A stretch of 64,000 nt of DNA from assembly GCA_937899415.1 (NCBI GenBank), contig CALBPI010000060.1:1-64000 (forward strand), given 5' to 3'. The position numbers and the translations under genes were made by a program. Below are positions 38,662 through 58,377 of the stretch, piece by piece (the first letter of the stretch is position 1; each line of letters begins with the position of its first letter). The stretch is from an uncultured Gammaproteobacteria bacterium. GTDB lineage: Bacteria > Pseudomonadota > Gammaproteobacteria > Steroidobacterales > Woeseiaceae. Under the pieces are notes generated by a model, which saw only the letters and a list, made by a program, of their open reading frames with translations, was not told where the DNA came from and did no database searches.

Positions 38662-39018
38662 GCGGAGCCGGCCGGGTGACCGCTGCGCCTTGTGCGTGGA
38701 GGAAAGTCCGGGCTCCTTCGGACAGGGCGCCAGGTAACGCCTGGGGGGCGCGAGCCCACGGAAAGTGCAACAGAAAAGATACCGCCACGTTCGCGTGGTA
38801 AGGGTGAAATGGTGCGGTAAGAGCGCACCGCGTCGCTGGTAACAGCGGCGGCAAGGTAAACCCCGCCCGGAGCAAGACCAAATAGGGGAGCAGCGGCCCT
38901 CGGGCTGCAGCGCCGGTTCCGAGCGCGCTCCCGGGTAGGTCGCTACAGCGTCACGGCGACGTGACGCGCAGATGAATGGTTACCCTCGACAGAACCCGGC
39001 TTACAGGCCGGCTCCCCA
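38662..39018 (+). ncRNA. rnpB: RNase P RNA, bacterial class A
   Basis: The catalytic RNA that removes 5' leaders from pre-tRNA. The closing helix pairs GGAGCCGGCC (38664-38673) with GGCCGGCTCC (39006-39015). Conserved core sequences are present in order: GAGGAAAGTCCGGGC, ACAGAAA, GGTAAACCCC, AGATGAATGGT and ACAGAACCCGGCTTAC. Length is about 357 nt, normal for class A. It lies between rsmI and mraZ, as in pseudomonads. Confidence 0.96.
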
Positions 39019-39026
39019 TCATCCCG

Positions 39027-39063
39027 CCGTGCCCGGATTTGCCCCGGGCGCGGCCTTTTTTTG
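39027..39063 (+). terminator. Terminator of rnpB
   Basis: CCGTGCCCGG (39027-39036) pairs with CCGGGCGCGG (39044-39053) around a 7-nt loop, followed after CC by seven T residues. It ends the RNase P RNA and insulates the dcw promoter. Confidence 0.9.
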
Positions 39064-39303
39064 CCCGATTTCCCCGTTAGCCTGCGATCTGAATGACAGG
39101 GCCGGACAGGCGTTTGCGCAAACCTGGCCCGGCATCCCGCCCGCGAGGCGCTGTCGCTTTGTGGCGACCGTAATCTGTCCGCTTATGTAAGAAAACGACG
39201 TAAGGCGCTGAATTACCGTTCCTTGTCGTTGGTCTGATCGCCGACAAGTTCTTTCAAATCGCGCCTAAGTGACTGTGCAAGCTCACAGTTTTACTGTTTT
39301 CGG
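39064..39303 (+). other. Noncoding region upstream of the dcw promoter
   Basis: No gene is visible. It holds the palindrome GTTTGCGCAAAC (39112-39123) within outer arms GGGCC/GGCCC (39099-39103 and 39126-39130), a small hairpin GTCGC/GCGAC near 39153, and the inverted-repeat operator candidate at 39272-39297. Confidence 0.5.
39272..39297. promoter_or_regulatory. Inverted-repeat operator candidate upstream of the mraZ promoter
   Basis: ACTGTG (39272-39277), six bases, then CACAGT (39284-39289) form a perfect inverted repeat. CACAGT in turn pairs with ACTGT at 39293-39297 across TTT. The three alternating arms end 6 bp before the -35 hexamer. The spacing does not fit CRP (TGTGA-N6-TCACA) and the orientation is opposite to LexA boxes. 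The regulator is unknown. Confidence 0.45.
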
Positions 39304-39332: not shown

Positions 39333-39365
39333 GGCAAAAAGTGGGTATTAGTGGGGATTGATGGG
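39332..39365 (+). promoter_or_regulatory. MraZ-binding repeats at the dcw promoter
   Basis: TGGG repeats start at 39342, 39352 and 39362, exactly 10 bp apart, and a weaker TGGC at 39332 continues the phase upstream. MraZ is known to bind direct TGGG-type repeats spaced by one helical turn at its own promoter and repress the dcw operon. Here they cover the -10 element and the start site, consistent with autorepression. Confidence 0.75.
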
Positions 39366-39386
39366 GTTTCCCGTCTTTTTTGACAC

Positions 39387-55885: not shown

Positions 55886-57076
55886 ATGTTTGAACTGATG
55901 GATGCACACAGCCAGACGGCTGTCATCAAAGTCATCGGGGTCGGCGGGGGCGGCGGCAACGCCGTGTCCTACATGGTCGAGTCCGGAATCGAAGGCGTCG
56001 ATTTCATCTGCGCCAACACGGATGCGCAGGCGCTCAAGAACATCGAGGTGCGCACGAGCCTGCAGATCGGCTGCAACATCACAAAGGGCCTCGGCGCGGG
56101 CGCCAACCCCGACGTCGGCCGCCAGGCCGCGATGGAAGACCGCGACCGGATTCAGGAAGTGATCGAAGGCGCCGACATGCTGTTCATCACGGCCGGCATG
56201 GGTGGTGGTACCGGCACCGGTGCCGCACCGATCGTGGCCCAGGTCGCCAAGGAGATGGGCATTTTGACGGTGGCCGTCGTCACGCGGCCGTTCATGATGG
56301 AAGGTGCCAAGCGCGCCTCGATCGCCGATCAGGGCATCGCCGAACTCGGCAAGTACGTCGACTCGCTGATCACGATTCCCAACGAGAAGCTGCTGAGCGT
56401 ATTGGGTGCCGAGACCACGCTGCTGGACGCGTTCGGTTCCGCCAACCAGGTGCTGCAGGGTGCGGTGCAGGGTATTGCCGAACTCATCACGCGTCCGGGC
56501 CTCATCAACGTCGACTTCGCCGACGTGCGCACGGTCATGGCCGAGATGGGCATGGCGATGATGGGTTCGGGTGTCGCGTCGGGCGAGGACCGCGCCCGCG
56601 CGGCGGCCGAAGCCGCCGCGTCGAGCCCGCTGCTCGAGGACATCAACCTGGCGGGTGCCAACGGCATCCTGGTCAATGTCACGGCCGGCATGGACCTGTC
56701 GATTGGCGAGTTCCAGGAAGTGGGCGAGACGATTCGCGAGTTTGCGTCGGACGACGCCACGGTCGTGGTTGGCACGGTGATCGATCCGGACTTGAGCAAC
56801 ACGATCCGCGTCACGGTCGTGGCTACGGGTCTGGGCCAGTCTGCACGCCAGGCGCAGCAGCCGCCGATGCGCGTGGTGCGTCAGCAGCAGCAACAGCGTG
56901 AAGAGCCCGTCACGGCGGCGCCGTCCAAGGCGGTCTCGAACAACGAACCCAACTACCAGGACCTCGAAAAGCCGACCATCGCGCGCAAGCGCGCCGTAGG
57001 CGATGGTCTCGGTGACGGCATGTTGCAAGAGGAGCTGCTCGACATCCCTGCGTTCCTCCGCCGCCAGGCCGACTGA
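55886..57076 (+). CDS. ftsZ: Cell division protein FtsZ
   Basis: The tubulin-like GTPase that forms the division ring. The 396-residue protein has [17 protein letters not shown], the GTP-binding [13 protein letters not shown] signature, the T7 loop [15 protein letters not shown], a variable linker (about 315-375) rich in Gln, and the C-terminal peptide [11 protein letters not shown] that binds FtsA, ZipA and ZapD. AGGTGAG precedes the ATG. A long hairpin follows the gene. Confidence 0.98.
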
Positions 57077-57091
57077 CGCCGACCGCGACCC

Positions 57092-57130
57092 GCACGACGC
57101 GCGCCGATACTCACCCGGCGCGCGTCGTGC
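57092..57130 (+). repeat. Perfect 15-bp hairpin after ftsZ
   Basis: Arms at 57092-57106 and 57116-57130 pair without mismatch around a 9-nt loop, starting 16 nt past the ftsZ stop. There is no T-run after it. It may protect the 3' end of the dcw transcript or act in factor-dependent termination. Confidence 0.7.
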
Positions 57131-57201
57131 GCCCGTCGCGCAGGGTTCCGTGTGCAACGCACGGGGCCCCGCTGGCGCCCGCCAGCCGTGGGACAATTCC
57201 T

Positions 57202-57229
57202 TTGCGAATTGTGAACTTTCGGTTACTAT
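57202..57229 (+). promoter_or_regulatory. Promoter in the ftsZ-lpxC gap
   Basis: TTGCGA (57202-57207) and TACTAT (57224-57229) are 16 nt apart. The start near 57236 would produce an RNA that meets the terminator-like hairpin at 57359-57383 about 145 nt later, before lpxC. Confidence 0.5.
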
Positions 57230-57358
57230 CCGAGCCCAAGTTATTGATTTTGCGTATTTCGGCAGCCGTAGCGGCCTGAAAAACGCTGGCATGGACGCAA
57301 CACGCGCCTGCGGAAGAACCCGCCGGAGCCGGCAAGACCACGAACGCAAAATGGGGTT

Positions 57359-57383
57359 CTGCACCGCTGAGTGCAGTTTTTTT
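57359..57383 (+). terminator. Intrinsic terminator or attenuator upstream of lpxC
   Basis: CTGCAC (57359-57364) pairs with GTGCAG (57371-57376) around a 6-nt loop, and seven T residues follow at 57377-57383. It lies 85 nt before the lpxC start and downstream of the promoter at 57202-57229. It would either end a short RNA or attenuate lpxC. Confidence 0.65.
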
Positions 57384-57468
57384 AAGGCAACACAAAACGT
57401 TAGAGACCCTGCAGCGCAGCCTTCGGTGGCTCGCAGCCAGCGTTGAGTGCGCCCAAGAGATTGTTGTG

Positions 57469-58377
57469 ATGCTGCGACAAAGAACACTCAAAACGACGAT
57501 CCGCGCCACGGGCGTGGGCCTGCACACGGGCGAGAAGGTCTACATGACCCTGCGTCCGGCGGCCCCGAACACGGGCGTCGTGTTCCGCCGGATCGACCTC
57601 GAGACCCCGGTCGATATTCCCGCAGACGGCCGCCGCGTGCGCGAAACCATGCTGGGCACCAACCTGTTCGAGGGCGAACACAAGGTTGGGACCGTAGAGC
57701 ACCTGCTCTCGGCCGTGTCCGCACTGGGCATCGACAACCTTTACGTCGATATCACGGCCCCCGAAGTACCGATCATGGACGGCAGCGCCGCACCCTTCGT
57801 CTTCCTGCTCCAGTCAGCGGGCATCGAAGAGCAGGACGTAGCCAAGAAACTGCTCCGGATCCGCCGCAAGATTCGCGTCGAAGACGGCGACAAGTGGGCC
57901 GAGCTCGTGCCTCATGACGGCTTCCGCATCAATTTCGCGATCAACTTCAACCACCCGGTGTTCGCAGACCAGCGCCAGCAGCTGTCTCTCGATTTGTCAT
58001 CGAGTGCGTTTCTTCGCGAGGTGAGCCGGGCTCGTACGTTTGGTTTCATGCGTGACATTGAGGCGCTGCGCGAACGCGGCCTGACGCTCGGCGGCAGCAT
58101 GGACAATGCCATCGTGCTCGACGACTACCGGATCCTCAACGAGGACGGCCTGCGTTACGAAGACGAGTTTGTGCGCCACAAGGTGCTCGACGCCGTCGGC
58201 GACCTGTTCCTGCTGGGCTACGGGCTCATCGGCGAGTACACGGCTTACAAGTCCGGGCACGACCTGAACAACAAGCTGGTCCGCGCAGTACTCGAAGATG
58301 CGGGCTGCCACGACATCGTCAGTTACGACGAAGGCACGACGGCGCCCGTCCAGTACCCGGCGCCGGTTACGGCCTGA
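57469..58377 (+). CDS. lpxC: UDP-3-O-acyl-N-acetylglucosamine deacetylase
   Basis: LpxC catalyses the committed step of lipid A synthesis and is a zinc enzyme. The 302-residue protein has [10 protein letters not shown], the zinc ligands in [10 protein letters not shown] and [11 protein letters not shown] (HxxxD), and the [12 protein letters not shown] block. The ATG at 57469 gives the family start MLRQRTLK; a GTG precedes it in frame. It ends the dcw cluster but has its own upstream control region. Confidence 0.97.

Follow-up and report, generated by a model that had tools for sequence, protein, structure and literature searches.

A predicted lpxC control region in the ftsZ–lpxC gap of a Woeseiaceae bacterium, with an IHF-type site and a terminator-like hairpin in the lpxC leader

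The window analyzed here is a stretch of 64,000 nt (64 kb) from contig C60 of the 3.9-Mb genome of a Woeseiaceae-type gammaproteobacterium. It carries ftsZ (55886–57076, + strand; an ORF of 396 aa), the last gene of the dcw cluster before lpxC, and lpxC itself (57469–58377, + strand; the ORF tool places the start at GTG 57466). Between the ftsZ stop codon and the lpxC ATG at 57469 lies a gap of 57077–57468. An earlier note on this DNA described a 392-nt gap with a hairpin, a promoter, and a terminator in that order, and all of its coordinates are correct on re-reading: a 15-bp hairpin (57092–57130), a sigma-70-like promoter TTGCGA-16-TACTAT (57202–57229), and a CTGCAC/GTGCAG hairpin followed by seven T (57359–57383) are present, all on the + strand. 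The gap also holds an IHF-type site (57237–57249), which that note overlooked.

The genome is the only one of its genus in our collection, so conservation is judged at the level of the family. The best named LpxC matches are from Woeseiaceae bacteria, and the window LpxC shares 71–72% identity with the best family LpxC over nearly the full length (74% over one partial match). In an FtsZ tree of 40 rows, the window is placed beside genus g11 (G010) with support of 90/84, and near g2, g3, g4, and g9 without firm support. lpxC was found at 102 places in 100 genomes; one place cut by a contig end (G055) and a second copy in G034 were left out. Of the resulting 100 loci (window included), 90 have an ftsZ match upstream of lpxC and ten do not, which gives 89 relatives' gaps from 88 genomes (G099 gives two). 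The gap sequence itself is poorly shared: blastn against 101 family genomes returned, beyond the genome of origin, a single 28-nt match (G090, contig C105), which we take as chance because lpxC of that genome sits on C49, and a search of a plasmid collection with the gap gave no match.

The first feature after ftsZ is the hairpin at 57092–57130, the arms of which (57092–57106 and 57116–57130) form 15 perfect pairs around a 9-nt loop, AUACUCACC. In many relatives, ftsZ is followed by a hairpin with an ACUCAC loop and a stem that changes in a compensating fashion, of which the window hairpin, with the same loop, appears to be the counterpart. The letters ACTCA, which were used to find this hairpin, occur in the first 150 nt of 46 of 90 gaps (window included), and scoring for the hairpin covered these 46. 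Across all 46 ACTCA gaps, 59.8% of cells are paired (shuffle maximum 57.6%) and 65 cells show double changes (shuffle maximum 55). In 22 rows (21 without the window) taken from these 46 for pairing well in a single register, the paired share of cells is 87.4%, with 43 double changes against a shuffled mean of 14.4, counts that are biased upward because the rows were picked for good pairing. A leave-one-out model lacking the window row (R2) has its best match in the window at 57092–57130, with a modest 17.5 bits (E 0.022); across the whole genome, for which 150 of 1314 candidates were scored, three of the six matches listed score at least 17.5 bits, and the window's own match is absent from those six. 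A second model (R1) includes the window row, and its matches in the window are therefore not independent. R1 found the ftsZ-end site in two of 13 family genomes (G000, G009); its matches in G001, G003, and G007 do not share a contig with lpxC, and those opened in other families (L186, L187) are at loci without ftsZ or lpxC. The earlier note counted the hairpin as part of a promoter-to-terminator unit; the relatives suggest instead that it belongs to the ftsZ end rather than to the lpxC unit. In the gaps L083–L174, CTCCGC often comes next after the ftsZ-end hairpin, along with a second GC-rich hairpin that has no U tract.

The putative promoter at 57202–57229, from which transcription would start near 57236, matches 8 of 12 consensus bases. 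It is the sole site of this quality in the gap on either strand, and a promoter scanner with a limit of 9 of 12 listed nothing in 56900–57700. Because 19% of dinucleotide-shuffled gaps also contain an 8/12 site, and the match is itself only 8/12, the promoter is weak when judged by sequence alone. It is nevertheless the probable lpxC promoter, as suggested by its being the only 8/12 site of the gap, by its location in an AT-rich stretch (57180–57279) of a GC-rich gap, and by its position between the ftsZ-end hairpin and lpxC, as in relatives. The second AT-rich stretch of the gap is 57360–57419. No other recognizable promoter precedes lpxC: the consensus scan finds no site of at least 8/12 between the terminator and lpxC, in agreement with the earlier note, and none of the gap's five best matches to a family −10 matrix lies in 57384–57468.

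This family −10 matrix describes TGTGnTAnnCT-type sites in ftsZ–lpxC gaps, and 80 of the 89 relatives' gaps, on which it was also trained, score at least 14. The relatives' lpxC promoter lies at a place corresponding to 57202–57229, and their leaders range from 10 to about 220 nt. The TACTAT element of the window is not recognized by the matrix (nearest listed score −7.6, out of register), and the top score in the window's gap is 2.7, at a GC-rich place. The IHF-type motif begins 7 nt after TACTAT, as against 29–31 nt after the −10 in 14 other leaders; because of this difference, the true −10 could instead be an extended −10 without a −35, TGGGACAAT (57189–57197, + strand), which by eye resembles the family form TGTGATAATCTTTCG and is not among the gap's five best sites by the family matrix. 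In 37 of the 89 relatives' gaps (L085–L162, genus g10), the lpxC −10 ends 10–12 nt before the ATG, which suggests an almost leaderless lpxC mRNA in these genomes. A long lpxC leader of another relative (L159, from G010) contains TATAAT, a possible second promoter.

The IHF-type site at 57237–57249 (+ strand) reads CAAGTTATTGATT and is an exact YAANNNNTTGATW, the reverse of the IHF consensus printed as WATCAANNNNTTR in a passage of PMC5963220, with all specified consensus positions matched. This strict form has the wording of PMC5963220 and was not fitted to the data. On both strands of the 64-kb window it occurs once, at 57237–57249. A relaxed form, which was written after the lpxC sites had been viewed, occurs at four places in the window (22979, 39201, 57237, and, on the − strand, 58688). 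The genome encodes both IHF subunits, alpha (TIGR00987, 163.6 bits) and beta (TIGR00988, 148.8 bits), each over the NCBIfam cut-off. IHF binding at 57237–57249 is predicted from the site and would place a DNA bend at the start point of lpxC transcription.

A 14-nt motif of this type recurs in the ftsZ–lpxC gaps of relatives, with the sequence YAANNNNYTGAWW and, in many cases, a T tract some ten bases further on. Of the 89 relatives' gaps, 77 carry the relaxed form on the lpxC strand (shuffled mean 1.1, maximum 4) and 12 lack it, and the opposite strand has it in one gap; in 48 gaps judged by eye to be from outside the family, it occurs in none on the + strand and in four on the − strand. The strict form is present in two of the 89 (shuffled mean 0.3), and the relatives' lpxC sites mostly have TTGAA (A in 94% of 68 sites), one mismatch from the printed consensus. 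Relative to the end of the −10, the motif begins 40–52 nt upstream in 61 gaps, 30–32 nt downstream in 15, and 18 nt downstream in one. At 55 of the 77 lpxC sites, the relaxed motif has TTTT within the next 18 nt; the IHF site H′ of phage lambda likewise carries a T tract 3′ of its core. A matrix built from 14 relatives' leader sites ranks 57237 narrowly best in the window (12.1 vs. 12.0), and a matrix of all 63 relatives' sites gives it 6.3, below the 6.9 of another position in the gap.

Other readings of the conserved leader motif were considered and set aside. An RNA structure was rejected for lack of a consensus fold (0.0) among the leaders of 18 genomes. NtrX was rejected as a shared regulator; in the passages of PMC7240162 that describe it, the NtrX motif is GCAn9TGC, unlike the motif of the lpxC gaps, and no NtrX site at lpxC is given. 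A separate leader motif, GTGG..GCAACA, was suspected by eye, and GCAACA is present in seven of 24 leaders of at least 90 nt (window included). The pattern TAAGNNATTGAAT-N11-TTTT occurs in five of 107 genomes, and two of these matches are at lpxC by position; of the other three, one (L183) is inside an obg-like gene, and the letters of the remaining two are the same or nearly the same as those of L183.

Sites of IHF type also lie at the other end of the dcw cluster, upstream of mraZ (39387). Scored with the matrix built from all 63 relatives' lpxC sites, the window reaches its top value (10.8) at an IHF-like site at 39200–39213 (+ strand), GTAAGGCGCTGAAT, which is not a match to the strict consensus. 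For mraZ, 30 loci (window included) were taken out of 95 genomes with a match. Among the 29 relatives, the strict consensus is found upstream of mraZ on the + strand in 22 and on the − strand in five (0.55 expected), and the relaxed form on the − strand in 11. None of the 22 strict mraZ sites has a T tract. The relatives' strict mraZ consensus lies ~205–231 nt before the start codon, with a conserved CTAAGTCCCTGTACAACAA nearer the promoter, and 39195–39240 together with the relatives L189–L217 forms a long conserved block upstream of mraZ. Just before mraZ, at 39342–39366, are three TGGGN repeats with 5-nt spacing (TGGGT-ATTAG-TGGGG-ATTGA-TGGGG), which we take to resemble MraZ operators.

Transcripts from the predicted promoter would encounter the terminator-like hairpin at 57359–57383, which has a 6-bp stem and a 6-nt loop (CTGCAC-CGCTGA-GTGCAG, 57359–57376; −7.5 kcal/mol) and then T7 (57377–57383). 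Under a strict form (at least six perfect pairs, four G-C, and T7 directly after), the criteria of which were fixed after the terminator had been seen, seven of 3000 shuffled gaps and one of 3000 shuffled leaders contain such an element; under loose criteria, the two strands of 801 bp together hold two sites vs. 1.1 expected. T runs of at least seven occur four times on the + strand of the 64-kb window, and A runs of at least seven never. Five hairpin sites are listed for the + strand; apart from the lpxC one, a single site among them is followed by seven T (stem 39026–39054, T7 39056–39062), and it has the same build and stands directly 3′ of the RNase P RNA gene (rnpB, 38664–39019). A plain long lpxC leader, in which the hairpin and T run would be accidental or too weak to terminate, is nonetheless conceivable, given a stem of just 6 bp, the free variation of leader lengths across the family, and the chance-level frequency of terminators in long leaders. 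The last point rests on loose criteria, with two terminators in 33 family leaders of at least 60 nt (window included; L104 left out of the count) vs. 1.84 expected by chance. Against this stand the rarity of the strict form in shuffled gaps and the placement of its one listed counterpart behind rnpB, and we consider a non-functional hairpin unlikely. The same frequency leads us to reject the leader terminator as a family trait and to regard it as lineage-specific or accidental, rather than as a device of the family. The one other long leader with a terminator-like hairpin is L132 (G007), with GCCGGCGTAACAATGTCGGC and then six T.

If termination occurs at 57383, the released leader RNA (57236–57383, + strand) would be about 146–148 nt long, with 85 nt of leader (57384–57468) remaining before lpxC. 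In the 148-nt RNA the terminator stem has a pairing probability of 0.87–0.94, and it opens in a longer fold, to 57500. Prefix folds of 57236–57383 show no clear anti-terminator pairing, and the folding energy of the 148-nt RNA is no better than that of shuffles (z −0.33). The earlier note had offered two readings of this arrangement, a small RNA (sRNA) or attenuation of lpxC. What survives of the latter is that transcripts directed toward lpxC would meet a terminator; regulated attenuation finds no such backing, with a terminator that is not conserved in the family (the closest level of relationship in the collection), an unexceptional fold, and no clear anti-terminator in the prefix folds. 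A leader peptide was also set aside: the reading frame at 57291–57446, which spans the terminator, shows no sign of use.

The terminator might instead end the ftsZ/dcw transcript and insulate lpxC, which would then be transcribed from a promoter in 57384–57468 that consensus scans miss. This arrangement has parallels in the 37 relatives' gaps with an lpxC −10 close to the ATG, and in three gaps from outside the family (L048, L072, L074) in which, by eye, a hairpin and seven T after ftsZ are followed by an lpxC promoter-like site; the AT-richness of 57360–57419 would also suit it. However, neither the consensus scan nor the five best family −10 matches place a promoter in this interval, and the IHF-type site is 5′ of the terminator, so that insulation appears distinctly improbable.

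A further alternative is a stand-alone gene for a trans-acting sRNA, with lpxC transcribed by readthrough from ftsZ or elsewhere. The spacing of promoter and terminator is typical of sRNAs, and a 9-bp inverted repeat (57247–57255/57344–57352) would close the leader RNA just before the terminator, although a repeat of this length also occurs in 175 of 3000 shuffles. RNAs are also known from the same gap in Pseudomonas aeruginosa (passages of PMC4651636) and in Xanthomonas oryzae, where Xoo8 (RF02243), an RNA of ~300 nt between ftsZ and lpxC, was detected by Northern blot (passages of PMC3039613). The window gap has the same gene neighbors as Xoo8, and the Xoo8 covariance model scores 23.1 bits over 57063–57541 (E 0.0034). 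We exclude it from Xoo8 because this score compares with a gathering score of 90 and the match is lost when the gap alone (57077–57468) is scanned, at E up to 10. The ends of the Xoo8 model align with ftsZ and lpxC codons, and Xoo8 is not a promoter-to-terminator unit like that predicted in the window. The near-absence of blastn matches (a single 28-nt match among the 100 other genomes of the family, away from the contig that carries lpxC) argues against a conserved RNA sequence. In relatives the corresponding place holds the lpxC promoter, and leaders span 10 to about 220 nt; an lpxC leader is therefore more likely than a free-standing sRNA gene, which we consider quite unlikely.

We therefore return to the gap as a control region of lpxC, the reading in which we have moderate confidence. 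Transcription would start near 57236 from a sigma-70-type promoter whose start point carries an IHF-type bending site, and about 235 nt of leader would precede lpxC. The intrinsic terminator at 57359–57383 would release some or most transcripts as a ~146-nt RNA, and the remainder would read through into lpxC; the first hairpin (57092–57130) would belong to the ftsZ end. Promoter activity, termination, IHF binding, and readthrough are all predicted here from the DNA letters, and the individual elements are of ordinary kinds. A more speculative extension, to which we attach little weight, is that, in Woeseiaceae, IHF sites flanking the division and cell-wall cluster (upstream of mraZ and at lpxC) couple the expression of envelope and division genes, and that in this genus leader termination also restrains lpxC, such that LpxC would be set at transcription besides, or instead of, by proteolysis. 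If true, termination ahead of lpxC would give outer-membrane synthesis an extra point of control, and either this terminator or IHF control shared with mraZ would add a transcriptional handle on the balance between the outer membrane and division. Among the matches listed for open-licence PubMed Central, none describes attenuation of lpxC transcription or places IHF at lpxC, and excerpts of the listed texts containing both "integration host factor" and "lpxC" mention neither.

By place, the closest known system is PA4406 of P. aeruginosa, an 84-nt RNA in the ftsZ–lpxC gap and in the same sense as lpxC, which passages of a review (PMC4651636) call experimentally verified and suspected to control LpxC. 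According to the same passages, LpxC of P. aeruginosa is not a substrate of FtsH, and a leader mutation from LpxC-inhibitor selection raises lpxC expression 3-fold; a gap RNA acting on LpxC would have a precedent there. The likeness is drawn from the description in that review, which calls it unclear whether PA4406 arises from its own promoter or by processing. Cleavage of PA4406.1 is reported in a passage of PMC5870498, and further passages on the PA4406/PA4406.1 RNA are found in PMC12932574 and PMC3039613. PA4406 lies directly before the lpxC start with its 3′ end reaching the ribosome-binding region, whereas the window RNA would end 85 nt before lpxC at the predicted terminator.

With respect to IHF promoter sites, the site in the window is a predicted one that fits all specified positions of WATCAANNNNTTR. 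For the leader, the closest worked-out case of a comparable build appears to be UpsM of Rhodobacter sphaeroides, in which termination inside the 268-nt mraZ leader produces a 206-nt RNA in abundance and lets through about one transcript in a hundred (passages of PMC5089854). UpsM differs in that it lies ahead of mraZ, where the cluster begins, belongs to the Alphaproteobacteria, and is experimentally shown, whereas the window case is lpxC after ftsZ and is known from sequence. The two share a long leader (268 nt there, about 235 nt in the window) in which an intrinsic terminator is placed far ahead of the start codon, here the predicted one at 57359–57383 inside the 5′ UTR. They also share a dcw neighborhood and the expectation of a short RNA, and perhaps the lack of a separate promoter for the gene; in the window, the consensus scan gives one predicted 8/12 site in the gap and none after the terminator.
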